A stretch of 64,000 nt of DNA from Turritopsis dohrnii (Eukaryota; Cnidaria; Hydrozoa; Anthoathecata; Oceaniidae): NCBI GenBank assembly GCA_027922465.2, contig BQMF02000030.1, positions 868,001 through 932,000 on the forward strand. The letters run 5' to 3'. Under the pieces are notes generated by a model. It was not told the DNA's origin and ran no database searches. It saw nothing but the letters and a program-made list of their open reading frames with translations. Positions 8,573-44,642 of the stretch are shown here, one piece after another. The first letter of the stretch is position 1. The number at the start of each line of letters is the position of its first letter. The position numbers and the translations under genes are program-made.

Positions 8573-9262
8573 TCATGGAACAGTCAGTTGTTTTCCATTA
8601 GATCTTCTATCTAATGAAAGCAAAAATGGACCAGCTGCTCTAACCCAGTCATCAGGGCCTCGTGAATATTTCGCATCGTTGCCAAACACTTCTCCCAACA
8701 TTTCGGTGTTGATCATACCAGGATTTAAAGGTATACAAGCTAGTGGGGAGGGCAGTTCCTTTGCTAATGCCATGGATAATCCTTCAATTGCCCATTTAGA
8801 ACAACAATATGGTGCTACATTTGGAGATGTTGAACGACCCCAACCAGAACTCAGATTAACAATAATGCCTTTACCAGCTTTGATCATTGCAGGAACAAAA
8901 ACATGAATAACATAATTAACACCTTTTATATTTACATCAATTACTTTATCGAATTCATTTAAAGGCACATCCCATAGTGAGTTCGGTTTATTGACAACAC
9001 CTGCATTGTTCACCAACATATCTGGTGCACCAAAACTGGCAATAGTCTTTTGTGCCCATTCTCCAACTGACTCCTGAGATGTAACATCTACTACTGTGAA
9101 TAAACTCCCATTTGCAGCAAAAGTTGCATTCAGTTCACTGATTTTTTGTGCTGAACGGCCACACCCGACAACCTTATGTCCATTTTCAATAAACCATTTG
9201 GTTAAAGATAACCCCAAACCTTGTGTGACACCAGTTATCGCAATAACTCTTGACTGCGTCAT
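8573..9262 (-). CDS. Classical short-chain dehydrogenase, intronless, paralogue A
   Basis: A single-exon NAD(P)-binding oxidoreductase of 229 residues. The start at 9262 (MTQSRVIAITG) is chosen because the Rossmann strand begins right there. An in-frame ATG 26 codons upstream would add a stretch typical of neither the family nor a signal peptide. Motifs: TGVTQGLG (10-17), NNAG (85-88), Ser139 in NLSSGWG, Tyr152/Lys156 in YCCSK, and NPGMINTEM after it. The substrate is unknown. Paralogue B, about 12 kb away on the same strand, is nearly identical in the shared part. Here the ORF stops with TGA after QLTVP, whereas B reads CAA at that codon and continues. No introns, unlike DHRS7B next door. 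Confidence 0.9.
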   Translation of the reverse strand: MTQSRVIAITGVTQGLGLSLTKWFIENGHKVVGCGRSAQKISELNATFAANGSLFTVVDVTSQESVGEWAQKTIASFGAPDMLVNNAGVVNKPNSLWDVPLNEFDKVIDVNIKGVNYVIHVFVPAMIKAGKGIIVNLSSGWGRSTSPNVAPYCCSKWAIEGLSMALAKELPSPLACIPLNPGMINTEMLGEVFGNDAKYSRGPDDWVRAAGPFLLSLDRRSNGKQLTVP

Positions 9263-20549: not shown

Positions 20550-21332
20550 CTAACGTGAAGTCAAATAATCGGTCAAATTCGCTGACAGATTCAAATGAAA
20601 AAATTTGCTCCAAAATGTTTTCAATTTAAAATATTTCAATATTTGAGGAACAGTCAGTTGTTTTCCATTAGATCTTCTATCTAATGAAAGTAAAAACGGT
20701 CCAGCTGCTCTAACCCAGTCATCAGGGCCTCGTGAATATTTCGCATCGTTGCCAAACACTTCTCCCAACATTTCGGTGTTGATCATACCAGGATTTAATG
20801 ACACGCAAGCCAATGGGGAGGGCAGTTCCTTTGCTAATGCCATGGACAATCCTTCAATTGCCCATTTTGAACAACAATATGGTGCTACATTTGGAGACGT
20901 TGAACGACCCCAACCAGAACTCAGGTTAATAACAACCCCTTTACCAGCTTTGATCATTGCAGGAATAAAAAAATGAATAACATAATTGACACCTTTTATA
21001 TTTACATCAATTACTTTATCGAACTCATTTAAAGGCACATCCCATAGTGAGTTTAGTTTATTAACAACAGCTGCATTGTTCACCAACATATCTGGTGCAC
21101 CAAAACTGGCGATACTCTTTTGTGCCCATTGTCCAACTGACTCCTGACACGAAACATCTACCACTGTGAATAAACTCCCATTTGCAGCAAAAGTTGCGTT
21201 CAGTTCACTGATTTTTTGTGCTGAACGGCCACACCCGACAACCTTATGTCCATTTTCAATGAACCACTTTGTTAAAGATAATCCCAGACCTTTGGTGACA
21301 CCAGTTATCGCAATAACTCTTGACTGCGTCAT
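20550..21332 (-). CDS. Classical short-chain dehydrogenase, intronless, paralogue B
   Basis: A 260-residue single-exon paralogue of the SDR at 8573-9262, with the same MTQSRVIAITG start (ATG at 21332). The coenzyme motif is TGVTKGLG (10-17), and Ser139, Tyr152 and Lys156 (YCCSK) are kept. Two differences matter. NNAG at 85-88 is NNAA; this motif stabilises the central sheet and its Asn helps the proton relay, and the Asn is retained. The ORF also continues 31 residues beyond the QLTVP end of paralogue A, because TGA there is CAA here. Most other changes are conservative, which suggests purifying selection in both copies, although a calculated dN/dS was not possible. Substrate unknown. Confidence 0.88.
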   Translation of the reverse strand: MTQSRVIAITGVTKGLGLSLTKWFIENGHKVVGCGRSAQKISELNATFAANGSLFTVVDVSCQESVGQWAQKSIASFGAPDMLVNNAAVVNKLNSLWDVPLNEFDKVIDVNIKGVNYVIHFFIPAMIKAGKGVVINLSSGWGRSTSPNVAPYCCSKWAIEGLSMALAKELPSPLACVSLNPGMINTEMLGEVFGNDAKYSRGPDDWVRAAGPFLLSLDRRSNGKQLTVPQILKYFKLKTFWSKFFHLNLSANLTDYLTSR

Positions 21333-22471
21333 TTTGTATGTTTGCACTTCTATTAAATATATGATATAATGCTCCAAACTATGGAAAAGTCTCATAATTT
21401 TGAACACAAATTAAAACACATATTTCCACTGTCTGTAAACAAAATTAAAACACAGATTTTGTTTTCAAATGTCTGCACTGACTTTTGTGAATATGAATGC
21501 ATATTTTCATCTTAATTGATCGTTAAGAAATCAATGAGTTTTTCCAAACTTATTTTTCGATTTTCTCTTTTTCTACTTTTCCATTTCCTACAAAAATTAC
21601 ATCACGAGAAAGACCAAAAATAAGGATTCCATCGATATAAAATTTGTAAAAATTAATTGGACGTATATCAAAAAGGCAAGAAGCCCTGGGGACGAGGTTG
21701 TGTATTCTGTTGTCTTTACCTCAGCCATATAACATCTGATGATTTTACATTTTTTTTGTAATTGTCATTTTTTCTACCTTTCAAAAACTGATAATCTCAT
21801 ATGAAAAGATCACGATTTTTGAAGGATCATATCGATAGGGTGTATGGGAACAAATTGGTGATAACAAATGAAATCAAATTAAAATTGTTTTTATTTCATC
21901 CTGACACGGAAATGGTGGGTAAATATTGTTTACATTTTTGTTGTAAAACAGTCCAAAATGGTCTCCGTTTTGGCCCATTTTTAATAGAATTCTAAACGGT
22001 GCTTACCCTGTCACAATTTATACATTATAGAAAATATAGCTAATATATAGGATCGCTTCATATATTTGTGAAAAGTACACATCGAAAACAATAATCCATA
22101 TATTTCATACTCAGTTTGAAAATATCTCTGCATAACCAAATTGTCCATATTTTAGGCTTTAAAATCTTCAGGGCCAATAGGGATAACTCCAGACCTTGTG
22201 CTCAACAATATTGACAATGGGGTGATCAAAATATCTGGATCTAAAAACGTTTAAGGACGGCAGAGAGGACGGCGATGAGCAACAGAATCTAAACGCTCAC
22301 ACTTAACTGTTGTGAGACGATCCATTACGTTTTTCAGATTGGTTTTATATCCTGTAAAAGATGGATACACTTTTGTACTTGAAATGTTTTAATTTATTAT
22401 CTTTGCATTGAGTATATATTTCACACTGTGCAGTCTATCCAACACTTTAAGTTGATTAAACACACATACTT
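21333..22471. other. Intergenic; no gene recognised
   Basis: AT-rich sequence with only short ORFs (for example 21801-21995) and no recognisable product or repeat ends. Confidence 0.4.
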
Positions 22472-22591
22472 CCCAGTAGGCAAAATCGTCAAAAAGTCAC
22501 TACGACGAAGAGCATTTTCATTGAAATTGTGTATATTTTGTATAGAAATGCACTCCTTCACAGTGATTTTTTAACAAATGTGCCGGCTGGG
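22472..22591. mobile_element. Palindromic ~120-bp MITE, copy 5
   Basis: A full-length copy from CCCAGTAGGCAAAATCGTC to AAATGTGCCGGCTGGG. The left breakpoint of the 2.39-kb tandem duplication falls inside its left end. Confidence 0.85.
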
Positions 22592-23061
22592 TTATATATG
22601 TGTCTCACTAAGGTTTTGAGATACTTGCCAATGATTCCAAAATAAACTAAACTGATGAGAAATCATAAACTTTCGATGCCCCTAATATAATCACTTTAAT
22701 CGCTTGCTGTCTTTGTTATGTATTGGAAGGTGTATTTGTACACGAACCACCTAATAGTTAAAGGTAATTAAAAATAAGTCAAAACATGAACAGGAGCTTT
22801 ATCGACAACTCCATTTATACATACTTGTGCTATCTTGCTCATGCTAATAAAAAGTAAAATATTTTTCACAAGAAACTGTTTGTAAAAGAACGGTAAATAA
22901 CCAGCTCATTAAATAATTATCAAAGCATGGATTGTATATAGCCTTATTAAGTGGTTTGTCACGGTTGATCAAAAGTCTCTCCATCAAGGTGAATCACGAA
23001 CGTCAAAGAATAGTTGAAGAGTAAGTGATATGTAAAAGATGCTCCTCAATGTACGAAAAAT

Positions 23062-23206
23062 CAGAGGCGTAGCCAGAGGTCAGTCAAAATTTGTGGAGGA
23101 GAGTTAAGTCATTTAGGGCAGAAAAGGAAAGCGTGCAAGTAACCTAATCGCCACTTAAGACTCAAAAGAAATATCGTAATGTTGACTGACCTCGGCTACG
23201 CCTCTG
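23062..23206. mobile_element. hAT-like MITE, CAGAGGCGTAGCC termini
   Basis: Inverted ends CAGAGGCGTAGCC and GGCTACGCCTCTG with subterminal GAGGTCAGTCAA/TTGACTGACCTC. It is flanked by AAAAAT on both sides. The same element is carried in copy B at about 25448-25592. Confidence 0.75.
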
Positions 23207-24616
23207 AAAAATTATACGAATTTATAATTTACATGGCTTTCGAACATTGCCATCAAATAATGCCATAAGTTTTCTTATGTGTTGATTTAACAAACATTTG
23301 TGGATTTTAAATCAAATGAAAACGAATATAAATCAAGTCATTTTTTGCATTTTGATTTCCGGATTTTCATCTCGGTTGTTCCAAAAATTTCCATTGACAC
23401 CCCGCCATGATTTGATGCCTTAGTACCCTTTCTTCAATAACCTTGGTGACTTCCACAATGTTTACTCAAAATATTTAAGTTTCTCCTTTCAATTGAAATT
23501 TCAAGACTGAAATGATTTTAGGTTTGTTTTGCAAAGATATCTAACTAATAAAATTATCAACATTTCTCTCTGTCAATCATCATAAATCTTTTGAGCATTG
23601 GATTTTAGCAGTTCTTCATTCTTTGTAAGTGTTTTTTTAACCGGGTGAAATTGTCAACTTCTGAACCTTTATTTTCAGTCCAGATTATTTCTTTCATCCA
23701 ATAACAAAGGCATATCAAGAATAAAAGTTTCATGTTAAGATTGAAAATTTCATTTTTTTTCCCTGGAATTCTAAGCACCAACCAGTGGCAAGTTTTTTGC
23801 TTGCAAAGTCAAGGAGCCCTTAAGGACTAAAAAATTAGAAAATATGAGTCAAGTAAAATCAGTTAAGAGTAGGTCAGGTTTCAGGATCAGAGAAGAAATA
23901 AGTGAAAGAATTTGAGTCTTAATACAGAGGCGTAGCGTCAAAATTTATGGAGGAGAGTTTAGTCATTTAAATAAGTAGTACGAAGTTACTATTACCATCA
24001 AATCTCTCAATATGGCGACTTTTATCAAAATGGCAGGTTCGATTTGAAGAAAAAGTCGAAATATCATAAGATTGCCTGTTACCCTTTTTTTCCTTTTTAC
24101 AAAGTGTAATTATAGGAAATTTTTATACGTAGCCTCTGTTATGGCCTGAGTTAGCGCATTCTACAAGCGAATGATCTGCTGGTAGCAAGTTAAGCAGAAA
24201 AGCTCAAGCGCATTAGTAAAAGCTGATAGTGTTTTCTTGCAATCACAAATAAGCGAGATGACATGAAACGCTGTGGATTTTTTTAGAAACATTTTTCGGT
24301 GGTAGTCATTTACTAATTTCCGAGACCGTTCTGGCAGTTTCATGTATTCATTTTTTTTTTTTGAATTGATTTTCTGTTGGCTGGAAGGAACTGGAAGTGT
24401 AATTCACTGATGTGGGTTTCCATCAAAAGTGTCTGCCTAAGATTTTAAGGCAGAGATTTTCACTTACTAGAGTGATAGATGACTGTGGTTTTATTTATGC
24501 AATTTTAGGCACTTGTTTATTACATCACATCATATACAATCTGGTATGTACGTTTTTGCTGCATACTACATTATTAATCTACATTTTTCATGTCACGATA
24601 GTATTTTACAATGCCG

Positions 24617-24862
24617 GTGTCACCGTAAATAACTACTCTCTTAAAAAAGTACTCCCCAGTACTTATTTACTGGGAAATAATTACTCCACAGTCATTATTT
24701 CCCAGGAAAAAAGTACTCCTGGGAGTAATTTTTTCCTAGTAAATAAGTAGTCCTTCAGGAAATAAGTACCCCCTTATCGCAACAAGTCCGATCAAATTGA
24801 AAAGGAGATTTTTAATAACGTTTTATCGTAATTTTTTAACGTTGTTTGCCGTAAATGGATCA
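24617..24862. mobile_element. Foldback element with AAGTACT repeats, truncated copy
   Basis: It starts ACCGTAAATAACTACTC and contains repeated AAGTACTCC / AATAATTACTCC words. It is cut by the duplication junction near 24862. The complete version is at 27465-28125. Confidence 0.65.
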
Positions 24863-24866
24863 AAAT

Positions 24867-27693
24867 CAAAATCGTCAAAAAGTCACTACGACGAAGAGCA
24901 TTTTCATTGAAATTGTGTATATTTTGTATAGAAATGCACTCCTTCACAGTGATTTTTTAACAAATGTGCCGGCTGGGTTATATATGTGTCTCACTAAGGT
25001 TTTGAGATACTTGCCAATGATTCCAAAATAAACTAAACTGATGAGAAATCATAAACTTTCGATGCCCCTAATATAATCACTTTAATCGCTTGCTGTCTTT
25101 GTTATGTATTGGAAGGTGTATTTGTACACGAACCACCTAATAGTTAAAGGTAATTAAAAATAAGTCAAAACATGAACAGGAGCTTTATCGACAACTCCAT
25201 TTATACATACTTGTGCTATCTTGCTCATGCTAATAAAAAGTAAAATATTTTTCACAAGAAACTGTTTGTAAAAGAACGGTACATAACCAGCTCATTAAAT
25301 AATTATCAAAGCATGGATTGTATATAGCCTTATTAAGTGGTTTGTCACGGTTGATCAAAAGTCTCTCCATCAAGGTGAATCACGAACGTCAAAGAATAGT
25401 TGAAGAGTAAGTGATATGTAAAAGATGCTCCTCAATGTACGAAAAATCAGAGGCGTAGCCAGAGGTCAGTCAAAATTTGTGGAGGAGAGTTAAGTCATTT
25501 AGGGCAGAAAAGGAAAGCGTGCAAGTAACCTAATCGCCACTTAAGACTCAAAAGAAATATCGTAATGTTGACTGACCTCGGCTACGCCTCTGAAAAATTA
25601 TACGAATTTATAATTTACATGGCTTTCGAACATTGCCATCAAATAATGCCATAAGTTTTCTTATGTGTTGATTTAACAAACATTTGTGGATTTTAAATCA
25701 AATGAAAACGAATATAAATCAAGTCATTTTTTGCATTTTGATTTCCGGATTTTCATCTCGGTTGTTCCAAAAATTTCCATTGACACCCCGCCATGATTTG
25801 ATGCCTTAGTACCCTTTCTTCAATAACCTTGGTGACTTCCACAATGTTTACTCAAAATATTTAAGTTTCTCCTTTCAATTGAAATTTCAAGACTGAAATG
25901 ATTTTAGGTTTGTTTGGCAAAGATATCTAACTAATAAAATTATTAACATTTCTCTCTGTCAATCATCATAAATCTTTTGAGCATTGGATTTTAGCAGTTC
26001 TTCATTCTTTGTAAGTGTTTTTTTAACCGGGTGAAATTGTCAACTTCTGAACCTTTATTTTCAGTCCAGATTATTTCTTTCATCCAATAACAAAGGCATA
26101 TCAAGAATAAAAGTTTCATGTTAAGATTGAAAATTTCATTTTTTTTTCTGGAATTCTAAGCACCAACCAGTGGCAAGTTTTTTGCTTGCAAAGTCAGGAG
26201 CCCTTAAGGACTAAAAAATTAGAAAATATGAGTCAAGTAAAATCAGTTAAGAGTAGGTCAGGTTTCAGGATCAGAGAAGAAATAAGTGAAAGAATTTGAG
26301 TCTTAATACAGAGGCGTAGCGTCAAAATTTATGGAGGAGAGTTTAGTCATTTAAATAAGTAGTACGAAGTTACTATTACCATCAAATCTCTCAATACACG
26401 CTTTTTTTTATAAGAACAATTTTATAAGAACACGAGCCTCAGATTTGGCCAAAAAATAAGAACAAAATAAGAACAACCCGAGGCTCAAATCATTGTTCCA
26501 AAAATTAAGAACAGCCTGAGCCTGAATTTTCTTGGAAAATAAGAACAGTTCATGATGTGAATTCTCTCATTGGTAAATGGTTTAGAAGGTTATTGGGTTT
26601 TTTTCACCTCCAATAAATGTGCGAATGGGTCATTACCGAACAGCAACCATACTTTTTGCCAGTTGTTTTTAAAAAATATTTCTATTTTACTGGAAGTTCC
26701 ATAAATAAGAAGAACAAAATGAGGCTGAAATTTGAAACTGTGTTCTTAAAGCAAAGAACAAAATAAGAACAATTCAGGCTGAAAAAGGCTCCAAAAATAA
26801 GAACAGCCAGCCTTAGGTCAGATTTTACTGGTTCTTATAAAAAAAAAGCGTGTATGGCGACTTTTATCAAAATGGCAGGTTCGATTTGAAGAAAAAGTCG
26901 AAATATCATAAGATTGCCTGTTACCCTTTTTTTCCTTTTTACAAAGTGTAATTATAGGAAATTTTTATACGTAGCCTCTGTTATGGCCTGAGTTAGCGCA
27001 TTCTACAAGCGAATGATCTGCTGGTAGCAAGTTGAGCAGAAAAGCTCAAGCACATTAGCAAAAGCTGATAATGTTTTTCTTGCAATCACAAATAAGCGAG
27101 ATGACATGAAACGCTGTGGTTTTTTTAGAAACATTTTTCGGTGGTAGTCATTTACTAATTTCCGAGACTGTTCTGGCAGTTTCATGTATTCATTTTTTTT
27201 TTTTTTTTGAATTGATTTTCTGTTGGCTGGAAGGAATTGGAAGTGTAATTCACTGATGTGGGTTTCCATCAAAAGTGCCTGCCTAAGATTTTAAGGCAGA
27301 GATTTTCACTTACTAATAGATGACTGTGGTTTTATTTATGCAATTTTAGGCACTTGCTTATTACATCACATCATATACAATCTGGTATGTACGTTTTTGC
27401 TGCATACTACATTATTAATCTACATTTTTCATGTCACGATAGTATTCTACAATGCCGGTGTCACCGTAAATAACTACTCTCTTAAAAAAGTACTGGACTT
27501 ATTTACTGGGAAATAATTACTCCACAGTCATTATTTCCCAGGAAAAAAGTACTCCTGGGAGTAATTTTTTCCTAGTAAATAAGTAATCCTTCAGGATAAG
27601 TACCCCCTTTATTGCAACAAGTCCGATCAAATTGAAAAGGAGATTTTTGATAACGTTTTTTTTTATCGTAATTTGTTTGCCTTAAATGGATCA
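24867..27693. repeat. 2.39-kb tandem duplication, copy B (with insertion)
   Basis: The second copy begins at CAAAATCGTC (24867), four bases after copy A ends. It differs mainly by the TA-flanked insertion at 26397-26852. Confidence 0.9.
26397..26852. mobile_element. 456-bp Tc1/mariner-like MITE inserted in copy B
   Basis: Termini CACGCTTTTTTTATAAGAAC and GTTCTTATAAAAAAAAAGCG. Copy A preserves the empty site, reading ...TCTCAATATGG..., while copy B reads TCTCAATA-[element]-TATGG. The duplicated TA target is thus shown directly. Internally it has repeated AATAAGAACA and GCCTGAG-like words. Confidence 0.9.
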
Positions 27694-28125
27694 AGTTTTG
27701 CGAAGACAACGTTTTGTGAATTTCTCGATTTTTGATCATTTTCTCAAAAGTTTCTCTATTGGCACACACAGGACACAAAATTCGCGATTTTTCTCCAGAA
27801 TAAAAAAGACATGATTTATCAACCTTCTTTGGATACCACTTCTATTTTGAAAGTTTTTTCTGACTAAATTCCAACAAAATAGCGACTCACGGAAGGCTCT
27901 TTTAATTGTCCCTCGCATCTCAAAAATCTCAATATCGAGTCATTAGGCCAAAGTAAACAAGATCGACTGCATTTCAATGTTCAATGGAATGGCTTCACAG
28001 GGAGTGCTTTTTTCCTGACAGGAGTACTTTTTTACTAGGTAATAAGTACTGGGGGAGTAATTATTTCCTAGAAAAAAAGTACTGAGGGAGCACTTTTTTC
28101 GGGGAGTACTTATTTACGGTTACAC
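27465..28125. mobile_element. Foldback element with AAGTACT-rich inverted arms
   Basis: The left arm starts CACCGTAAATAACTACTC, and the right arm ends GAGTACTTATTTACGGT (about 28012-28125). Both arms carry repeated GTACTT and AATTATTTCC words. The arms are about 130 bp and the centre is unrelated AT-rich DNA. Confidence 0.7.
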
Positions 28126-29060: not shown

Positions 29061-30723
29061 CAGTCCTCCAACGGAAGTTCTCGTGGTAACAAAACTCAAA
29101 AGAAATAGGGGAAGATTTACCTCTATATATTATTTATTAGGGTGGTTAAGAAATAAATAGAGGAATATTAACTTGGATAATAAGAAGATGTTGATGGAAA
29201 TCACCTTACCTCTAAGAGATTTTATCTCCTTTTTAATATTTATACAAAAATAAAATGTATGGTTGGCAAAATTTCAGATTTCCAGCTGTGCTTCAAAATC
29301 CTTATCGTTCATTTCACTAAAACAACATAAAAGTAATATGAAAAACGTCTAAGCAATGTTACCATACGAACTTCCTAAATAACATTGGGGGAATTTTCCT
29401 ACTATATGGTGGGCGATTGTCCGGGGGCAATTGTCCGGGGGGAAATTACTAGAGGGTAATCATCTGGGGAGGGGGATTGTCCAGGGGGGAGTTGTCCATG
29501 AACCAATACACAATGGGGATATCACGTAAATATTTGTTTTGGGTAATTATCAACTATGCGTAGAATTCGAGCGTTACAATCAGCGTATCTCCGTCTTTTA
29601 GGAGGTGGTGGATGTCACGCTAGATTTTGAAGCATTCGGACATGCACAACACTTTCCTCCTTACGTAATATTTCCAAAAATTTCCAGAACGTCGGGTGGC
29701 AAGAAGAAACGTTAGGGTTAAAAGTAATTCTCCAAGGTGTATTGACTAATGCGCTGTCAATATTCCTTATTTATAAACCGAATTCTAGTGATCTTTGTCG
29801 GACACTCCGGTGGACTGTGTCGTAAGTAAACACTTCAAATATCATTTTAGTAGACAATGAGAATATATGAAACTTTGTTGGTTTGGGGGGCAATATTCCG
29901 GGGGGATTTTCCTACCTATATGGGGGCGATTGTCCGGGGGCAATTTTCCGGGAGGTAATGCTCCGGGGGGCAATTTACTAGGGGGCAATTATCCTGGGGG
30001 AATTGTCCAGGGGGGAATTGTCCTGTCACCATTTCACGAGTAGTGATTCATGATGCAATGGCCAATTCCAGTGTTCAATGTTCTAGTTCAATGACACGGT
30101 GCTTGATAGAAAAGGGGATAATAAAATTAAAACAGTTGAAAATACAGAATATCTTTTGTTACAAAGTATCGGTTATTCTCGTTTCTCACTTTTTTTGAAA
30201 GTTTTCTACATAGTAATAACATTTACTAACAAGACAGATATCATTACAAAAACAAAAGTGACTAAATTGATTCGTCATTAGACGTTTTAGCTTTTTAATG
30301 ATTGTCTGGATTACAAATTAACCTATGAAAAGGCTTATGCTTATCCCCCTTCACTGCCATTTCAACCGCTGGAAGAGGAGGAATAGGAGGAGGAATAACA
30401 GTAGTTTAAGGGCGTTTTTCGTGCAGTATTAACAAGAAGGCAATATAATTGTATCTACACAATTGATTAGTTCGCAATTGATAGACTTTTAGAAATAATT
30501 GAATGAATGATTGAGTGACTTTTACTAATCCTACATCTTTACTAAGTCATAACTCAGATCACGAGATCTCTTATTAATTTTTTTGAAATGTGTGACTTCA
30601 AACAATGCCTTTGCATTGATTATACATGATCATTTAAATTATGATCATTATTTTGATGATAACGTCCATATATTGAGGTTATTTGACCATCTCTTCAACC
30701 GACGAAAGTTCACATAAGTTACC
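29060..30723. other. Intergenic with two G-rich repeat blocks; no gene recognised
   Basis: The G-rich blocks are annotated separately. The last few hundred bases before 30724 would hold the acyltransferase promoter and are plain AT-rich DNA. Confidence 0.45.
29390..30025. repeat. Two direct blocks of GGGGGCAATTGTCC-type repeats
   Basis: Blocks at about 29393-29505 and 29905-30022 share TTTTCCTAC.TATATGG.GGGCGATTGTCC and then repeated GGGGGCAATTGTCC-like units. Units occur every 13-20 bp and are strand-asymmetric (G runs on the plus strand). They look like the subterminal repeats of a foldback or solo-arm element. Confidence 0.75.
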
Positions 30724-32037
30724 ATGGAACTAACACATTTATCTACAATTATCGTAACTGCAAAAGATCAACGCAATGCGAAAGAGCAAAAGTTGTCAGC
30801 CTTTGATAACGGAAGGAATGGGACTTTCTTACCTTTAGCATTTTATTACAAGAACAAGGAAGACTTACGTAAATCATACGAGGAAACGTTGGTGACAGCT
30901 CTTGAAGCTACCCTTTTGCAGTATCCAGAATTTGCTGGCTCGTTTGAAACCCAAGAAAATGGCTGTGTTATTCGCTGTGATAACAAAGGTGTCAAACTGG
31001 TAAGATCAACAGGAAACTTTACTTACAAAGATGCTGAAAACTGCAATTTCTCACTGGAAATTCCCGATTCCCAATTGTTTTTGGAAGACAAAAAGGATGA
31101 AGAATCATACATGACCAACGCTCATTTGATAGAGCTTCAAGATAATTCTGTCATCGTTGCTGTCAGGATATCGCATGGAATTTGTGATGGGCATGGGGTC
31201 GCACGCTTTTTGAACGCATGGGGATCAGTTGCTAGAACAGGAGATGTCGGAACTTTCACTAACGACACTAACCGACAATTACTATCTGGAAACGGAAAGG
31301 CGATCATGCAAGAAAAATATCGTGGTGATATACCAATGTCTTCAATAACTATTCCTGCTACAAACCAAGTGGCGTATTTTTCAGTTTCTTATTCGAAGCT
31401 TGATAATCTTAAAAAGGAGCTTTCAAAAGATTTCAGCCCAAGGCAATTCATTTCCCGAAATGACATCATTACTGCTATTTCATGGAAAGCCGCTGTAAAT
31501 GCAAGACTGCATCGAAAAAACGAATACACGGCTTGCGTAATAGTTAAAGACTGTCGGAAAGTACTCGGTCTCTCCGAATGTTATATTGGAAATTGCTGTC
31601 CCTTTTTGGCTCAAAGGCTTCTGACAAGTGATATTGAAAAAATGTCGTTGAAAGAAGTTTGCTTAAAAATTCGTTCATTCTATGGTGTTGTTACTAAAGA
31701 TTACGTCATCGACAATATTAATTGGATGGAGAAAAATGAAAAGAAAAACTCATTATTTTTTAACTGCGTGTCAGGTAACGACTTCATATTTTCGTCAGCT
31801 GCAATGATTTCTTGGTATAGCTTTGATTTTGGCCATGGAAAACCTAATTACGTTACCCCCTCTAAAGACTATGTTGTTGGAACAATATCTATCATGCCTG
31901 TAGCAAACAATGATGGATTGGAAGTAACAGTGGCTTTTGAAGAAGAGGAAATGGCAATCTTTTTGAGTGACAGATATGTAAAAAGTATATGTGACTTAAG
32001 ATATATTTCCAACGGTTATGCGGTGAAACAATTGTAG
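30724..32037 (+). CDS. BAHD-family acyltransferase, intronless
   Basis: A 437-residue single-exon protein, the usual length for the BAHD family (about 430-460 residues). These enzymes move an acyl group from acyl-CoA to an alcohol or amine. The catalytic HxxxD motif is HGICD (His151, Asp155), in RISHGICDGHG. The structural DFGWG motif appears as DFGHG (368-372), in SFDFGHGKP. Also family-like are LLQYPEFAGSF near residue 65, WKAAVNARL near 255 and the YIGNCC segment near 288. The start has a good context (ACCATGG), and no signal peptide is present, so it is probably cytosolic. BAHD enzymes are abundant in plants and fungi and scattered in animals, so this is unusual but not impossible. The acyl donor and acceptor cannot be read from sequence. 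Confidence 0.9.
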   Translation: MELTHLSTIIVTAKDQRNAKEQKLSAFDNGRNGTFLPLAFYYKNKEDLRKSYEETLVTALEATLLQYPEFAGSFETQENGCVIRCDNKGVKLVRSTGNFTYKDAENCNFSLEIPDSQLFLEDKKDEESYMTNAHLIELQDNSVIVAVRISHGICDGHGVARFLNAWGSVARTGDVGTFTNDTNRQLLSGNGKAIMQEKYRGDIPMSSITIPATNQVAYFSVSYSKLDNLKKELSKDFSPRQFISRNDIITAISWKAAVNARLHRKNEYTACVIVKDCRKVLGLSECYIGNCCPFLAQRLLTSDIEKMSLKEVCLKIRSFYGVVTKDYVIDNINWMEKNEKKNSLFFNCVSGNDFIFSSAAMISWYSFDFGHGKPNYVTPSKDYVVGTISIMPVANNDGLEVTVAFEEEEMAIFLSDRYVKSICDLRYISNGYAVKQL

Positions 32038-34500
32038 AAAAAGTATTTGTGTAGGCCGTTTATCTGTTCATTTGCTTTTGATTATGAAAGATATGCTTAA
32101 GTTTCGTTTCTTTCATCATCTTGCTGGCAAATCATTCTTATGTTTTTATTGAATAATTGTAAAACTCTTTGTATGCTCAAGTCTTTTGTAGAGAAAAGCA
32201 GAAATTTAAAAGTGGATTTTTTGTGTGTTCAACGCCTTCTTAGCAATATAATCACTTATTATGAAAAAAGGGATGGTTCACCCTTTAAAGAGGGTTGAAG
32301 ATTCACCAATCCAATCGATGAACCCTATGATGTTTCTTCAGGAATATAGAGATCTTTCCATAAAATACTACACTCTTGATAGGTAGAATTCATAATTGAA
32401 ATTAAGGAATATGATGGCAATATATTCACTACTTTTAACCTGAGTAAAAATCTTTACCAAGTTTAACTTGGAAAAGGATGTGTCAAATTCGCCTTTCTCG
32501 TGTGCTCCATGACGAAAATTTATATTTGGAAATTGGAAGCAGAACATGCAACCATGTCGTAGAGCTTGAAAAACGTTTCGCTACGATCAACCTTATTCAT
32601 ACTATAAGAAAAAACAAAACAAAAAAAAAAGTTCAAAAACGTACTTACCCTAAAGACATTAGTAAATCTTCGTGCAATACTTTCGTAGGGAACGAAAACT
32701 TTGCTTGTTTGATTCTTGATCTAGCAAACCAATCAAAACATTTGAAACGATCAGGACAAATGCACTTTATACTAACAACAAATCTCTCTCTTACCTCTAC
32801 CTGGTCTTATTTGCTCCTATGAAGAAGTTGCCCGTTAAAAAAATGAAATATATGACTTTGTAAGTGTGACACACGTCCGAGTGTTGGGACATACATAGAT
32901 AGATAATGACAAAGACAATTACCTTTTATTCCTATGTAAAAATGTAAGTACAGCAATTTTTCATCTGTAACCTGTTATTTGGCCTGTGTCAGGGCATTCT
33001 ACACACGAATGCTATCATTGTGGTGGAGGGGAAAAGTTAAAATGCATTAGTATAAAGGCCCCCGCTTAGTCGCTATAGATTTCTCTTGCAAATAAAAATT
33101 ATTTAATTATTTTTCAGTGAGTTCAGTGATTCTTTCATTCAGCGTCCATCGGCATTATAAAAGTCTTCTGGCTGCTGAATGTATATTCAACTAACAGATG
33201 TCTGGAAAGGAACTTATAAATTAAGGAAGTTATAAGTTGGATATTTTAAACATCTCATCCATTAGCTCTCAAGGAAATGCTGAGGGACTGTTTTTCTTTC
33301 AATTTCGTTAACTCTCCTTTTGTTCATCTTTTTGTTCATTTTTTTTCAAATTTCTGTGAGAAATGTTTTCTTTGTTTTTTTCCCTCTTCCCACTATTCTA
33401 ATGGGGATTTAAAATTTAGTTTCTGTTTTCGCCAATTTTGTCACATTATTTGGAAATCTTTTTAATCTCTTTCTTTTTCTGTATCAATTGCATTTAGAAT
33501 CCACATGCCTGGTCCTATGTTATGTTTTTTTATTATTTGCTATTTCTATGTATATTAAGTTATGGTCTGAAGAAGCAAAGGTACGTCTGTTTTATGTTGT
33601 TAAGTTTATTTGTAGAGTTGTAGAATGTGTCCAGTCTACTTTGTGTTGTTTGTGAATGAAAGGTATAGTTTAGTTTATTTAGGTTAAACTGTCTCCATAT
33701 GGCAGTAGTTAATTTGTGTTTGTTTAATATTTGATTAAGGACCGATTATCATCTTTTATTTAGCTGTCACCAAAAAATATTTATAGCTTTCGAAATATTG
33801 TCAAGGTTTTTCAATGTCGAAAAGATTGTTACGTAAATAAAAATTCTATTTCCTTAATGTTTGTGATAATGTTATCGATATTATTATTTCAGTTGCCTCA
33901 ATAATCTGGCTTTAATATGTTTGCTAAAGTACATGTTTCCAAGCTAGATAAAATAGTACTAAAATAGTTACTTAAGTTTGATTAAGGATTAATTAACTTA
34001 AGTCTTCTACAAAAATAATATGCTTGTTTTGGGTATTGATTTTCTCCATTATGTTATGGAGTTCTGTGTAGAAAGTGTTTTTTTTTTCATTTGGGGTTTG
34101 GGTGGGGCATATATTGCAATTGTAAGGATGATTTCATTATTGTAGGATATTTCAAATTCTACTATTCTGTTACTTTGATGATGAATTTGTGAGAAAGGTA
34201 GTGTCGAAAGGAATGCTCTTGGTATGTCTGAGGGTGGGGATGCTATATTATATTTATCCCATTTTTTGGGTTATTTCTAGGGCAGTTGTCTGGTCTGCTC
34301 TAGTGTCTATTATCATTGTGATGTGAAACTTAGATACGATGGTTTTGTTAATTATTAAATTATTTATATTTGGAGGTCTTGCTTTTAGAACAATTTATGT
34401 TTATTTCCGCAATCCTTAGGACACTGCCTTTCTCACTGTTGTTGAATGTGTATTGAGAAAAAGTAAATTATAACTTAAATTATAAATTAGAAAATAATAA
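32038..34500. other. Intergenic; no gene recognised
   Basis: A 114-codon ORF at 32478-32822 is the longest; it is lysine-rich, has no motif I know and no supporting neighbour, so I do not call it a gene. The rest is AT-rich without clear repeats. Confidence 0.45.
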
Positions 34501-34506
34501 AAATAA

Positions 34507-37426
34507 CTAGCTACCAGTCTTTTTTTTCTTTTTTTCTTTTCTTTTTTCTTCCTCTTCTTCGTTCTCTTTTTCATCCACTATTCGTTTAATCGCTGTGGAT
34601 TCTTTCATTTCTTCGTCCTTTGCGTTTTTGTTAAGTTCTTCCTTTCGTATTTCTTCCCTTTGTTCTTCATTTTCGTTTTTTCGTTCGTTGTTGTTTTCTT
34701 CTTTCTTCTTTTCTTCTTCCCTTCTTTTCGTTTTCAATTGTTCTTCTTCTATTCCTTCTTCTTCTTCATTTCATTTAGTTTCTTCTTCGTTCACGTTTTC
34801 CGTTACTTTGAATTCAATTGTCGTCTGTTTTTTTTCAGTGTTTTTCTTCACTGTGTCTTCAGATGGTGTCTATGCATCGCGTGTGTGGATTATTTCGTTT
34901 GGTGTAGACTTTTCAACAATCTTTCTTGGTTGAAAATTATTGACGTCATAGAATAGGTAATACCTTCCATCAATTTCGATTTTTGTGCTTATTAACGGGC
35001 CATCTTCTTCTGGTTCAATTAACAAGTGGCGTTCTCCAACTATGATTCCGACTACATTCAACTACATTCTTAAGATTTCCAAAACGAGTTTTGAATACTT
35101 GTTTGAAATGTTCTACAGTGGTTGTTTCCGGTAAGTTATAAACCATATGCTTGTAGATTCTCTCCGCTTTCTGGGTTGTTGGTGTTGGCTTTGTAGTTTT
35201 CTTTGCTGTTGCAGCGTACGATAATGGTTTCTTTATGGTTTCTTCGTCTTCCGAAACTTGTAATTCTTTATTCATCGTTTCCATTACTACGATTTCTTCT
35301 GCACGATGTCGTGTGTTATGCTCCCACTTTGTAATTATCTTGCCCCACTTTGTAATTATCTTGCCCCACTTTGTAATTTTTTTGCCTCACTTTGTAATTA
35401 TTTTGCCTCACTTTGTAATTATCTTGCCCCACTTTGTAATTATTTTGCCTCACTTTGTAATTTTCAAGCTGTACCACTTTGTAGTTACTATCTGCCCCAC
35501 TTTGTAATTTGTGATCCTAATTTCCCTGTTTTTTTCCTGGTGTCTATACGGGAGATGACTATCTTTAGAGTATTCCATTTTCTTGCGCATGCTCAATGAG
35601 TAAGAAAAAACCTAATTGACTCACTAATTATCAATTTGTCAACTTCATTAGTTCACAATGTGATAGTAACATTTTGATATTTTTGAGCACATGCACAGTA
35701 GGAAAAACGCAATTATCTCGCTAATTATCAATTTATAGCTGTCGGCTTCATTAGTATGCAAGGTAAGACGAACATGCTGATGGTGACCCTTAATGATTTT
35801 GAAATCCTCCAACGCATGCGCAGTAGAAAAAACACAATTATCTCGCTAATTATCAATATATTGCATGTATGTAAGCTCCAGAGGCGAAGTTTACACAACA
35901 ACTAAAACAAAGAATTATCAAAATCATTATTCAAAGTCACAGTACAACCTTTCTATATGCGCAACCAAACAAACTGAAGACTTTTCCAGGTCTTACAGTT
36001 CTCGTGGGGTTTTCCAGACAGTTGTCGTTTTTCAGACAGTTGTTGCCTTCGGTTAAAAAGTTATTATAAGTTACCCATTTTTAGCTTAAGTTCTTTAAGA
36101 TAGATATAAACAACGAACCCATTCTACATTTATTCATTTTCAGTCATGTAAACTTCTCGCTTTATAAATGCGTTTAAGCCAGACCCTTACCTTCACTAAC
36201 CCAGACAAATTTTACATGATTTGATAAAAACTAGTTCTATTTTTAGATGTCTGTAAAGTATATGCATTAACAATATGTGCTGAGGCGGATACAAACATAA
36301 TCAATTTTGTGGAGGAGTACACTGTCACGAATTTTCTTTTCAGTCTCATTATTGTTTAGTAATCACGTTATTTTTTTCTATTCTTAATAACTTAAGTCGT
36401 TTCAAATCCGACTATCCTAACGATTTTTTGCTTCTTTACCTGGACTTAGCATTTGAAAGGTTGATTTTTTCAGCCATCCACATCGAATATTTGCATCTTT
36501 GGAAACATTTCCACGGTTTTGTAAAGAACCCATAACAAGCACCACATGATGCAAAACCATCTTTAACGTATTAAATTCTTCAACATCCTTCATCTCTGCT
36601 AGAATTATTGCTTAGTTTTTTTATGCCTTTTTTAGGTTTAGTTATGCTTACATGAGAACTTCCACATGGAAATGTGTCATGGTACCACTAACAATAGATC
36701 GCCAAAGACGTTAAGACTAGTATGAAAGTGATGATTACAGTTACGAAAAGTCACTTCCAAGTTCGAAATCAGCATCTCCCAATTATTCTTTGTGCAAATT
36801 TTTGTGAAATTTGGAGAACTTTCAAAAATTGGTCCAGTTTAGTGACGTTATTTGATAATTCTTACAAATAAAGTTTTGGTAAAATACATATTATTTAGGA
36901 AGTAAAAAGGACAGGAAATTACAAAGTGGGGCAGGAAGTAATTACAAAGTGGTGCCGCTAAAAATTACAAAGTTGGGCAAGATAATTACAAAGTGGGGCA
37001 AAAAAATTACAAAGTGGGGCAGGAAGTAATTACAAAGTGGGGCAAAATAATTACAAAATGGGGCAGAAATTACAAAGTGGGGCATAACATCGCCCACCAC
37101 TTAGTAGATAACTTGCACAAGTTTTTTATTCCCGGTAGGCTTGATGTTTCTTCAAAAGGCTGTTTCGCTGACTCGTGCCACGTGGTGATTAACTTTTCAT
37201 TGGATCGTAGATATTCATAAAATCGTGGTTCTTCATAGTTTCTTTTATCTTCCGTCTCTTTCGGGATTTGATTTTCGCCAGATGATCGTGCTTCTTCATC
37301 CCTTGGGATTATCTTGTCATCATCATATTCCATTGCAATGACTTGCTCGGCTCTTTCCATCGTGTCTTCATCAGAGTTGGCCTCTAGTGAATCGAATGAT
37401 AAGTCGACGTTGTTCTCAGGATCCAT
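34507..37426 (-). pseudogene. Unrecognised retroelement-like ORF, split by a foldback insertion
   Basis: The 5' part is 37426 to about 37090: an acidic start MDPENNVDLSFDSLE, then an E/R-rich region. The next part, 35313 to about 35050, includes EEIVVMETMNKELQVSEDE and KPLSYAATAKKTTKPTP. Then comes 35061-34870 (GIIVGERHLLIEPEEDGP), and finally a glutamate/lysine-rich stretch at 34737-34507. The first two parts are separated by a foldback element (35314-37090). The second and third are out of frame around a 10-bp direct repeat (GAATGTAGTT/GAATGTAGTC at about 35050-35070). The composition is reminiscent of ORF1/gag-like proteins, but no domain is certain. Confidence 0.45.
35314..37090. mobile_element. 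1.78-kb foldback element with tandem-repeat arms
   Basis: The left arm (about 35320-35512) is a tandem array of a 21-bp unit, CCCCACTTTGTAATTATCTTG, about nine units. The right arm (about 36912-37085) is the same array in inverse (ATTACAAAGTGGGGCA). Outermost ends are TGTTATGC and GCATAACA. The interior has no transposase. It sits inside an ORF and breaks it. Confidence 0.85.
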
Positions 37427-40080: not shown

Positions 40081-42893
40081 TCGGTAAAAAATTTAGTTAG
40101 GAAAAATTTTAGTCGGGAAAATGTTAGTCACTTTTCCCCGACCAATTTTTGAAAGTAGTCACTTTTCCCTGACTATAAGAAGAAAATAACCAAGATATTA
40201 CAATAACATCTGAGTTATTCTATATCTTATCGGGGTAAAAAAGTCGGAGAAAATGTTTGGTCGGGTGCAAAAAAGTTGGGGGAAAATTTGGTCGGGGAAA
40301 ATTTTAATCATACCCTTCTTTGTAAACAGGCATTGGTTGCATCTTTCCATGATAAATAGACTTCTGGGCCAACATGAATTACAATATACTCTTCTATTCA
40401 TACATTGATAAAATTCATGAGGACGATTGGAAATCTCATAATTTCCGTCAGGCTTCTCGAAGCACAGGTTGTTCCTACCTAAACGGCTCAAGGAGAAAAG
40501 ATTCAAATTACGAAGGTTCGATGCTTGGTTTCCACTTCAGAATGATAAACCATCTTTCCCATTTTGGCCAGAAAAACTTAATTTTATCGCAAAGTTTTGA
40601 ACTGAAGAATATTTTGGTGCGATAGGTCAGAAAACATAAGTAATAGGCATGATGAATTTCAAGCGTTTAGCGATGGCTGTTTCGGTGTTGTTCAAAAAGA
40701 AAAAGATAGGTGTTTATCGGACTCATGACAACTAATCGTTCATTGCTTGGCTTGAAATGTTCTTATGCGATCAACCTAAAATTATTGGACCATAAATAAA
40801 GTGATGAAACTCCATTGCACAGTGTGAAACAAGTTGTGGAAATTCTAAATCGCATAAATATAAGTTCTCTTTATAGCTTGCTTAATTTAATTTTACGATG
40901 TTTTCAAAAGGTGTACACAACAATAATAACATGATATATTCGGGAGTATTGATAACTTATCTATCAAAGCACACTTACAGATAAATAATGATGGAATCGT
41001 TGGATTTATTATAGCTGTAATTGCTCGTTGCTCCCTTACGCTCGCTGCGGGGGCAATAAAAGTGGGATGTACGTTAATTGGATAATTATAATATGATAAT
41101 ATAGGCTTATAAGATTACTCAGCAATCCATGTTTTTTCATAATAACCCATGAAAAAAAGAGACGAATTTTCTGCATAGAAAGCAAATCCGAAAAAACAGC
41201 AGCAATGTTTTCAGAATTCACTTTTACTAATAAAAATTGTTTTGGAAAAAAGACACTTAATTCTGTAAATACTGAAATACCTAAAATTTCTTTAAATCGA
41301 AACATCACATTTTAACACTTCCTAAAAAAGAAAATATGATGTTTTCAAAACTCTTTGTCCGAAATTTTAACACTTTTGTCCGAAATTTTAACACTTTCTT
41401 GGTTTCAGGAACATCTGAATACTAACCTCATTAGGGCTTCACCCAGTGGGCAAAATCTTCAAAAAGTCACTGTGACGGAGACAATTTTTAGTGAAATTGT
41501 GTGTAGATTTCCATGGAAATGCACTCCTTCGCAGATATTTTTCAAGTCATAATAATATGAAAGAGGTGAATGAGGGCGAGTTAGAGCGTGAGGGAGAGTA
41601 AAAGCTTCACTCAGGAACATCTGAATACTAACCTCATTAGGGCTTCACCCAGTGGGCAAAATCTTCAAAAAGTCACTGTGACGGAGAGAAACTTTAGTGA
41701 AATTGTGTGTAGATTTCTATGGAAATGCACTCCTTCGCAGATATTTCTTAATAAATGTGCTGAATGGGAAGGAACTGAAAATACATTATTTTCAAAATTG
41801 GAAAATTGGAAACTAAGCTGACAAAACCAAGCAATGAGATGGCACTCCATTAACCAGATCTCTAACCCAGTGTGCAAAATCGTCAAAAAATCACTGTGAC
41901 GGAGAGGTGAATGAGGGCGAGTTAGAGCGTGAGGGAGGGTAAAAGTCTCACTTGTGTATCTAAGCTTTCAGATACACCAATTAATGTATATTCCTATTTC
42001 TTAGTTTTACTTTTCATTAAGTTTTTGCATTGATAAAATAGCGAACATTTTTGCGCATCTGTTTGTAAAAAACATGATTTTTTATTTCAAGTGTTTATCA
42101 ATGCCTTGTGGAAATTTTCTGGTGATTTCAAGGAAAAAGAAGTTTCGCAGCTTCTCCATGACATTTATAAACCACATTTTAGTTTATGTGAACAATGTTG
42201 TTTTTTGTAGTAAACATACTTGCAGCCTTAAAGGAAGAAAAACTATTTAAACAAAGATATTCTCATAATTACGTACAATATTTAAGCCCAAAATGTATCA
42301 GTCCATGACCGGTAATATCAATCAACGCTTAATTCATTCCATTGATTAATTTATTACTTTTCGATGTTTCACTGCACGAAATTTAATGTTTCTACAGTGT
42401 GTATCAAAATGTCTTATCCATCAAGGTGTATCTTTCATTACATGTCTGGATAAAATATTGTGAATTTTATATCACAAGAAAAAGCTTTTCATGCCCTATC
42501 TATCAGTATGAAATGTTTGGCAAAATATTTGTTCTTCGAAAAGATATTGAAGAAAAAACTCAACACTGTACATTTTCTGATGCACGAAAATATTGTCTAG
42601 TCAGTCTCCATAAATGTAAAATTATCATTTTGTTATTATTCCCATTGGGATTTAAAAGCGTAAATAGAATTTAAAAAATGAATCAGAGTGTTAATTAACT
42701 GTTAATTGCTCTCCTCAGCGAAAACAAGCAAATTAAGTTTACGTCATAGTCAAATCCCTTGTCTCCAATCTATAGGCACTGTTGTTTACGCCAAAAACTA
42801 TAAATTCAGCATCAAATATTTAAAACATTAAGTTGAAATAAGTCAGACCTAATAAAAATATTAATGACACTGTTGGTATAACCTGCAAAAGCA
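40081..42893. other. Repeat-rich interval, no gene recognised
   Basis: It starts with degenerate GTCGGGGAAAA repeats (to about 40310). A cluster of duplicated MITEs lies at 41406-41945. A segment near 42440-42520 is inversely related to parts of 45505-45680. The ORF at 40374-40625 is unrecognised. Confidence 0.45.
41406..41945. repeat. Local duplications carrying three MITE copies
   Basis: CAGGAACATCTGAATACTAA ... GTCACTGTGACGGAG occurs at 41406 and 41612. GTGAATGAGGGCGAGTTAG occurs at about 41566 and 41907. The palindromic MITE is present at 41442-41547, 41648-41769 and as a 40-bp stub at 41866-41904. Confidence 0.8.
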
Positions 42894-44642
42894 ATGAGTC
42901 CATCATTTATGTTTAACAATATTTTTCTGCTGATACTACAACATTTGCATGATAAAACAGGCAAGATTTCAAAGACATCGATGATATCAAACGATGGTGA
43001 CTTGCAAGTCGTAAACACTAGATGTGGAAAAGTCGAAGGATTAAAACGTGAAGTCGTCACTGATTCTGGATACACAAAATCAATGTACCAGTTCAACAAC
43101 ATTCCGTATGCTGCACCTCCGGTTGGCAAACTTCGATGGCGACCACCACAGAAAATCAGTAACAAGACGTGTTGGAAGGGTATTTTGAAGTACACTAACA
43201 ACACGATACAATGCACACAGTATTTTCCCGGGTATTTGAATGTTTCTGGCCAAGAAGATTGTCTGTTGCTGGACATACGTACGCCTTCTTTAAATCGAGG
43301 AGCCAAGAAGCCAGTTTTGGTTTGGATTCATGGTGGTGCAATGATAACCGGAAACAAAGCAATGGAAGGATATTCAATAGACAGCCAATTGGCAGCATCG
43401 TTGGATGTGGTGGGTGTAAATATCAATTACAGGCTAAATGCATTCGGATTTCTATCATTGGAAGAACTATGGGTGAAGTCTGGTCCAATGGAATCTTACG
43501 GAAACTATGGAATCATGGATCAAATCATGGCGTTGAAATGGATAAAACACAATATCAAGTACTTTGGAGGGGATCCGAACAAAGTGACCATTTTAGGTCA
43601 ATCTGGTGGTGGCACAGCAGTAAACGCCTTGTTGTCATCAACGCCTGCTCAAGGGTTATTTCGAAAGGTAATTTCAGCCAGTGGTGCACCTAACATTCGT
43701 GTGACGCATACAGAAGCAAATGCGATGTATCGATTCTTCATCAATGACACGAATTGCATGAGAAGTACTCGTGAAGAAATTCGAGATTGTTTGCAAGCAC
43801 TACCAGCGGAAGTTGTCGTCAAACACCAACCTTGGGCTAAATCAATAATTCCTGATGTACCCCCAGGAACTGTCAATTTACTACCCTACAAATATTACTT
43901 CCCATTCAACGAACCTGTTATTGGTTTTGCTATTGAAATTATAGATCCTGTGGTGGTACAACGATCACCGAACGAAATCATGTCTTCCGAGAACAATCAA
44001 ATAGATGTAGCTATAAGCAACACAGCTCAGGATATACCAGTATTTCCACCAGTTGTTTTGAATGATGAATTTAGCTCCTTGAAAGATGTGGTAGAACCAA
44101 GAATTTCCTCCTTCAACAACGCTTCATATGATGAAATCTTGGAGACATATATACGGGAACATTACGAAAATGAAAAGGTTCGCCCAGCAGTCTTATCGCC
44201 ATCATATTTATACACGGTCATGGCTACAGATGTCTTATTGTCATGTGCCATTAACGATTTAGCAACTCACTTATCAACAACACCTGGTTACAATGTGTAT
44301 CGGTTCGTGATTAGTCAACCACCGAGTCCAATCAACGGAGAAGTTCAAACAGCTGCTCACATATGGGACATGCGTGCATTGTTTGGTTATCAACAGAGTG
44401 ATTTCTTTGGTCTCATTCATGTGCCAAACGAAGATGACATGGCATTGAAAGTAAATATCCGAGAATATTACAAGAATTTCATTCACTCTGACTGGAAATT
44501 TATGCGAGCACATCAAGACAAAACAGCCGTATTCTGGGAAAATGATATCCGTTTTTTCGATAACAATTATCATCACAAAGAATGCCAGTTTTGGCGGAAC
44601 AATGATTTTTTAAAACAAAGCTGGGGGAATTTAGGTGAATAA
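42894..44642 (+). CDS. Secreted type-B carboxylesterase (cholinesterase family), intronless
   Basis: A 582-residue alpha/beta-hydrolase with a short hydrophobic N-terminus (residues 5-17), suggesting export. Family landmarks in order: IPYAAPPVGKLRW (70-82), EDCLLLDIRTP (121-131), the oxyanion loop WIHGGAM (HGG 146-148), YGNYGIMDQ, the nucleophile elbow GQSGGG with Ser237, and His489 in TAAHIWDMRALFG. The acidic member normally is a Glu in a T-K-D-E-G context. Here the aligned segment is NTAQDIPVF, so Asp380 is the likely acid. The elbow GQSGG replaces the usual GESAG. Esterases of this family hydrolyse carboxylic esters; the substrate is unknown. It has no introns although long animal relatives usually do. 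The last codon and stop overlap an AATAAA. Confidence 0.92.
   Translation: MSPSFMFNNIFLLILQHLHDKTGKISKTSMISNDGDLQVVNTRCGKVEGLKREVVTDSGYTKSMYQFNNIPYAAPPVGKLRWRPPQKISNKTCWKGILKYTNNTIQCTQYFPGYLNVSGQEDCLLLDIRTPSLNRGAKKPVLVWIHGGAMITGNKAMEGYSIDSQLAASLDVVGVNINYRLNAFGFLSLEELWVKSGPMESYGNYGIMDQIMALKWIKHNIKYFGGDPNKVTILGQSGGGTAVNALLSSTPAQGLFRKVISASGAPNIRVTHTEANAMYRFFINDTNCMRSTREEIRDCLQALPAEVVVKHQPWAKSIIPDVPPGTVNLLPYKYYFPFNEPVIGFAIEIIDPVVVQRSPNEIMSSENNQIDVAISNTAQDIPVFPPVVLNDEFSSLKDVVEPRISSFNNASYDEILETYIREHYENEKVRPAVLSPSYLYTVMATDVLLSCAINDLATHLSTTPGYNVYRFVISQPPSPINGEVQTAAHIWDMRALFGYQQSDFFGLIHVPNEDDMALKVNIREYYKNFIHSDWKFMRAHQDKTAVFWENDIRFFDNNYHHKECQFWRNNDFLKQSWGNLGE

Follow-up and report, generated by a model that had tools for sequence, protein, structure and literature searches.

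Much of the acylated chemistry found in plants is the work of BAHD enzymes, and BAHD genes are known chiefly from plants and fungi. The fold is two-domain and CAT-like, with a solvent channel running through the molecule; in the chemistry of the family a His deprotonates the acceptor for attack on acyl-CoA, and an Asp and the DFGxG loop serve structural roles. Among animals, the whitefly carries an acyltransferase, BtPMaT1, that we presume to be a BAHD member. The whitefly report describes BtPMaT1 as a plant-derived malonyltransferase (PMC12451028). A survey of 126 species, comprising algae, plants and a small number of others, locates the first BAHD in the green lineage and cautions that further species lay outside its sample (PMC11449225); the naming of HCT/HQT-type plant enzymes as clade V follows that survey. 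A search of the open-licence literature, with most subscription papers outside its scope, found no description of a native animal BAHD family, and the word acyltransferase is absent from the available sections of PMC12685057 and PMC11784711. The gene considered here lies in Turritopsis dohrnii, in a stretch of 64,000 nucleotides (C30:868001-932000, hereafter the window) from an assembly of 435.9 Mb in 891 contigs. We consider it probable that this gene belongs to a native animal family of BAHD-fold acyltransferases that is old, intron-free and still growing, and that numbers about 15 distinct intact members.

The locus holds an intact BAHD acyltransferase gene on the forward strand at 30724-32037, which runs for 437 codons from ATG to stop. 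An in-frame stop stands directly 5' of the ATG, and the stop-to-stop frame begins at 30718. The features referred to below are as follows.

30724..32037, + strand: single-exon gene for a BAHD-type acyl-CoA-dependent acyltransferase of 437 aa, from the open reading frame, PF02458 and PDB matches
31174..31188, + strand: HxxxD motif, here HGICD, with His151 and Asp155, both invariant in 17/17 intact members
31555..31557, + strand: Arg278, candidate partner of Asp368, invariant in 17/17 members and 3/3 plant fragments
31582..31596, + strand: YIGNC, counterpart of the plant BAHD YFGN stretch, with Asn290 in 17/17 and Gly289 in 16/17 members, and both in 3/3 plant fragments
31825..31839, + strand: DFGxG motif, here DFGHG, with D, F, G and the final G in 17/17 members and H, I, A, C, F or L at the fourth position

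We take His151 and Asp155 of the HxxxD motif to be the catalytic site and, from BAHD structures, presume a salt bridge between Asp368 and Arg278. The window protein matches PF02458 with an E value of 6.6e-46 and 157.3 bits (cut-off 22.7), residues 4-416 corresponding to positions 4-430 of the 434 in the profile. With coverage this near to full there is no space, 5' or 3', for a missing coding exon of any size. As judged from the sequence, the window gene is a single coding exon, with introns possible in its untranslated regions. When 13 kb of sequence around the gene was shuffled 200 times by mononucleotide, open frames reached at most 189 codons, versus 439 in the real sequence. A codon score trained on two neighbouring genes gives the frame 0.016 bits per codon; 2000 random windows of the same length, which may themselves overlap genes, average -0.173, and 17 of them reached the score of the frame. 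Among solved chains the closest are BAHD enzymes, led by 6lpv (E 9.4e-15), and PDB searches with two profiles returned 37 and 34 chains, whose names we take to be those of plant or fungal proteins. NCBIfam gave just a sub-threshold match to CatA and no family, and an AlphaFold model built on an 8-row alignment has a mean pLDDT of 40.1, too poor for a check of the active site. The intronless BAHD gene originally proposed is confirmed in its open reading frame, its PF02458 domain and both its HGICD and DFGHG motifs, which occupy the positions usual for a BAHD enzyme.

The best phmmer matches to the window protein are plant clade V BAHD enzymes (HCT/HQT and spermidine hydroxycinnamoyl transferase; 5kjv, 4g22 and 6lpv), with which it has in common a near-full PF02458 domain, HxxxDG, DFGxG, YxGN and DxR. 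It differs from them in having DFGHG rather than DFGWG and in the absence of a two-residue insertion; and, rather than nesting inside the plants with high identity, it lies outside them on two small trees at 19.5-24.5% identity. Three plant PDB fragments are 23-25% identical to the window protein and seven plant proteins 19.5-22%, versus 38-80% for the plants among themselves. The two-residue insertion follows the DxR stretch in the plants shown; all 17 members, the window protein included, lack it, as does the fungal fragment. The fungal counterpart, trichothecene 3-O-acetyltransferase (2rkv, E 1.8e-6; 2zba), matches the C-terminal half only, at 23% identity, compared with 21-26% for the plants over the same half. 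It resembles the window protein in its shorter DxR...Y stretch and in its non-Trp motif residue (DFGLG). The profile PF22664 (TRI-like_N) matches 2/17 members weakly, with a best E value of 0.00036. BtPMaT1, for its part, is like the window gene an acyltransferase gene in an animal genome; it is reported to be plant-acquired (PMC12451028), whereas the window gene lies outside the plants compared and is part of an old family of many genes, and the two are set apart here by description.

A tree of eight sequences splits the plants from the window protein and the fungal fragment with 97% ultrafast bootstrap. In a tree of 23 sequences, the branch that parts this animal's 17 genes from the plants plus the fungus has SH-aLRT/bootstrap values of 70.9/78 and that of the plants 99.2/99, and a subgroup on contig C296 lies nearest the outside sequences (93.5/77). 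Both trees comprise plants of the HCT/SHT type, one partial fungal sequence and, for the rest, this animal's own genes. These small trees argue against a recent plant origin but do not discriminate vertical descent from ancient gain, whether single or repeated. Searches for protein homologues retained 0 of 5202 candidates at E <= 1e-3 with the whole window protein and 0 of 109 at E <= 10 with residues 56-176; a search with alignment A1 returned nine proteins, with the source names Ambrosia, Echinacea, Helianthus, Bidens and Artemisia. Alignment A1 also suggested a loop deletion before DFGHG, which we rejected on finding the loop of normal length relative to the fungal fragment and the paralogues.

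The window gene has many relatives in its own genome. The whole genome gave 31 matches to the window protein (34 of 34 candidates scored) and 26 matches to PF02458 (25 of 25 candidates scored). Nineteen of the latter extend over nearly the full length in a single frame; 17 of these are open, while those on C565 and C16 each contain one stop. The remaining seven matches are pieces on C303, C438, C296 and C30. All 17 intact members match PF02458. In the protein search, four of the 17 (two on C3 and one each on C20 and C296) have a stop within the aligned part, apparently because the alignment overruns an end of the frame; the PF02458 search shows no stop over the profile. The protein encoded on C240 is 99.5% identical to the window protein, and long flanking blocks are about 97-99% identical, so that C240 resembles a second haplotype of the window locus. 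About 1.1 kb at window 32877-33997, 0.8 kb downstream of the BAHD gene, is absent from C240, which represents an insertion/deletion polymorphism. The same haplotype-like behaviour is seen for C171 and C463. Two of the 17 are therefore probably second alleles, which gives about 15 distinct intact loci. Contigs C368 and C438 match in six blocks, the BAHD copy being open on C368 and broken on C438, and the two may be an intact and a broken allele of one locus.

Broken copies are found on C565 and C16, where the full length is interrupted, and on C438 and C303. Collinear pieces occur on C303, on C438 and at C296:459k. Since the pieces on C303 and on C438 overlap in the DNA, as would result from frameshifts, and the C296 pair is missing 75 profile positions, we take them for broken genes rather than exons. 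The PF02458 search of the whole genome gave no clear case of an intron-split BAHD member, and with the same method some P450 genes do look split, for example on C42. Identity to the window copy ranges from 25 to 72% among the paralogues, and whole subfamilies are only about 25-38% identical to it. Several copies share a contig, in groups on C3, C20 and C296. Ten of the 78 open reading frames listed near BAHD copies were scanned; six are of transposon or reverse-transcriptase type and two have no match. A rhodopsin-type GPCR frame (L022) adjoins the C463 copy, and a DIX-domain frame (L023) adjoins the BAHD fragment at C30:498k. PF02458 matched 0/14 control genomes; the named controls are prokaryotes, so that this result is uninformative about animals. 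With about 15 distinct intact loci in the genome, a view of the gene as a lone stray copy gives way to one of an old, intron-free and expanded animal gene family.

The alignments, the dN/dS values and the larger tree are based on the 17 open full-length frames and exclude the C565, C16, C438 and C303 copies and the shorter fragments. Thirty-three columns of the 17-member alignment are invariant, among them H151, D155, R278, N290, D368, F369, G370 and G372. The initial annotation had regarded the His of DFGHG as an oddity. The motif matches the family consensus DFGWG at four of five positions, the Trp position being the one that differs. Residue 371 is never Trp in the 17 members: only the window gene and its allele have His there, the others having Ile, Ala, Cys, Phe or Leu, and the change is ordinary within this animal's family. 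We compared 15 chosen pairs out of 136 possible for dN/dS. The ratio lies between 0.085 and 0.27 in 10 of the 15 (two of these ten being probable alleles and two having dS >1.5), as in window/C21 (0.26), C446/C324 (0.25) and C3c/C20a (0.18). It is high in two young same-contig pairs, C3a/C3b (0.77) and C296a/C296b (0.58), and undefined in three pairs in which dS is saturated. By these sequence-based estimates, purifying selection is the rule among the pairs compared, with exceptions among the youngest copies.

As to how such a family came to reside in this animal, one possible reading, slightly favoured, is vertical inheritance, in which an early animal or pre-animal BAHD gene that was already poor in introns would have been kept here and lost in commonly studied animals. 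Over its C-terminal half the window protein is about equally far from the plant and the fungal sequences, and the divergence within the family nears the distance to plants and fungi, as is expected of an old lineage. The homologue searches, however, retrieved no other animal BAHD. Automatic annotations assign BAHD genes in other invertebrates.

Possible as well, if somewhat doubtful, is an ancient horizontal gain, by which an intron-free (or intron-losing) founder would have been taken up from a fungus, alga, protist or bacterium well before the radiation of the family and would then have expanded. The occurrence of 19/19 near-full-length members in a single frame is consistent with such a founder, as are the names of the solved relatives, which we know as those of plant and fungal enzymes. 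Transfer of a malonyltransferase from plant to animal is on record for BtPMaT1 of the whitefly (PMC12451028). The C296 subgroup, which lies nearest the plant and fungal sequences, points the same way, and its position would allow for more than one gain. Against this, no close donor appears among bacteria and archaea, phages, plasmids or viral contigs. Two scans of 84,980 species confirmed none of 425 and 109 pattern stretches as close bacterial or archaeal relatives, and pattern scans of phages, plasmids and viral contigs found none either; these scans detect close relatives only and were of sets without fungi or algae. The 17 genes also stand apart from the plant and fungal sequences on the small tree, with moderate support. 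Of the three origins offered initially (horizontal gain, retroposition or an ancient intron-free lineage), the last fits best, and recent horizontal gain is disfavoured by the presence of some 15 distinct intact copies, the others of which are 25-72% identical to the window copy, and by the 20-26% identity to plants and the fungus.

Retroposition of processed mRNAs, whether of the window copy or as the means by which the whole family spread, is in our judgement unlikely. The single-exon structure would be expected of it, and the homology of dispersed pairs is sharply bounded and only about 1.3-2.0 kb long, covering the gene and a little flanking sequence. At 32621, 0.58 kb downstream of the stop of the window gene, an A-rich stretch contains ten A in a row, and this much of the suggested retroposition finds some support. 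However, we found no exact direct repeat of >10 bases flanking the window copy within about 1 kb to either side, neither AATAAA nor ATTAAA in the first 1 kb beyond its stop, and no poly(A) tail at the 3' edges shown for five pairs, of which three are 94-95% identical. No spliced, intron-bearing parent is seen in the genome. Together with the same-contig groups, this favours duplication at the DNA level over retroposition, and the family appears to grow by both local and dispersed duplication of that kind. Recent retroposition of the window copy is thus disfavoured, though retroposition may have occurred, above all at the founder.

That the gene was recently transferred to this animal, or that it contaminates the assembly, is scarcely credible and we reject both: the family is best known from plants (in the survey of algae, plants and some other species; PMC11449225), but the same locus stands on two haplotype-like contigs with long flanking blocks in common, animal genes lie on the same contig, paralogues of all ages are present, and identity to all plant and fungal sequences compared is just 20-26%.

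The surroundings of the window gene are in part spliced, as the initial annotation held. A short-chain dehydrogenase (SDR) gene at 7621-6929 on the reverse strand is predicted from sequence to have three exons joined in frame across two GT-AG introns of 103 and 133 bp. Other animal genes in the window are represented by Josephin pieces (one of them weak), a piece of an Ostalpha-type transporter and immunoglobulin exons. Nor are genes without introns rare nearby. A carboxylesterase gene at 42882-44642 on the forward strand (PF00135, E 2.9e-86) occupies a single exon, and two SDR genes on the reverse strand, at 8573-9343 and 20550-21410, form a single-exon pair about 12 kb apart that is 91% identical over 817 bp. 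Given these three genes without introns, an intronless gene is unexceptional in this window. A tblastn search of the window with the window protein found no second BAHD gene (the next best match has an E value of 0.84), and Rfam gave no matches in the window at gathering scores.

The window also contains several repeats. Direct repeats at 22481-24012 and 24867-26396 extend over 1.53 kb at 99.6% identity, and those at 24011-24863 and 26853-27694 over 0.86 kb at 95.0% identity; these two adjoining pairs are perhaps young mobile elements. A 21-bp minisatellite of the CACTTTGTAATTATCTTGCCC type occurs at 35323-35510 and 36917-37084 in opposite orientations 1.4 kb apart. A G-rich array with units of about 15 bp, of the GGGGGCAATTGTCC type, lies at 29921-30025, 0.7 kb upstream of the BAHD gene. 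An open frame of 688 codons at 1-2064 on the reverse strand runs off the window edge and has, by eye, the look of a hAT-like transposase, without a Pfam match.

The window enzyme is likely functional, as the invariance of its residues suggests; the catalytic His and Asp are the same in 17/17 members, and the earlier impression of an active enzyme is borne out to this extent. By analogy with the family, it would be a BAHD-fold, acyl-CoA-dependent acyltransferase, probably located in the cytosol. With His151 as the general base, the hydroxyl or amine group of some small molecule would be activated to attack the thioester of acyl-CoA, and Asp155 and the DFGxG loop would hold the active site. A role in specialised or detoxifying metabolism seems plausible, and our guess is that an acetyl or other small acyl group is placed onto a hydroxylated natural product or a xenobiotic.

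Octocoral-type terpene clusters hold terpene cyclase and P450 genes beside an acyltransferase. Membership of a terpene gene cluster was considered for the window gene and rejected: a motif scan of the six frames of the window found no P450 haem motif, and the same frames contain no convincing pair of terpene cyclase motifs, only scattered cyclase-like ones. The terpene cyclase profile PF19086 has no match in the genome, nor in any of 14 controls, and is hence uninformative. Among the P450 matches listed, with 92 of 162 candidates scored, P450 and BAHD matches fall on the same contig only for C3, where they are >1 Mb apart, and C66, where a P450 match lies 46 kb from a broken BAHD fragment. At such distances linkage gives no hint of function. 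Six near-full-length, single-frame P450 matches lie within 45 kb at C3:959846-1004525, and further single-frame P450 genes are present in the genome.

Returning to the native family that we favour, we would venture, with some reserve, that this animal holds an ancient, intron-free repertoire of about 15 BAHD enzymes in several deep subfamilies, set apart from the plant and fungal families and from clusters of P450 and terpene cyclase genes, and that these enzymes acylate small molecules of its own or from its diet or symbionts. The case illustrates that one intronless gene, read alone, can mimic horizontal transfer even though it is one of many. The set of paralogues is ready for assay. A large native animal BAHD family would mean that the host, and not microbes, may be the maker of some acylated natural products found in animals of this kind.
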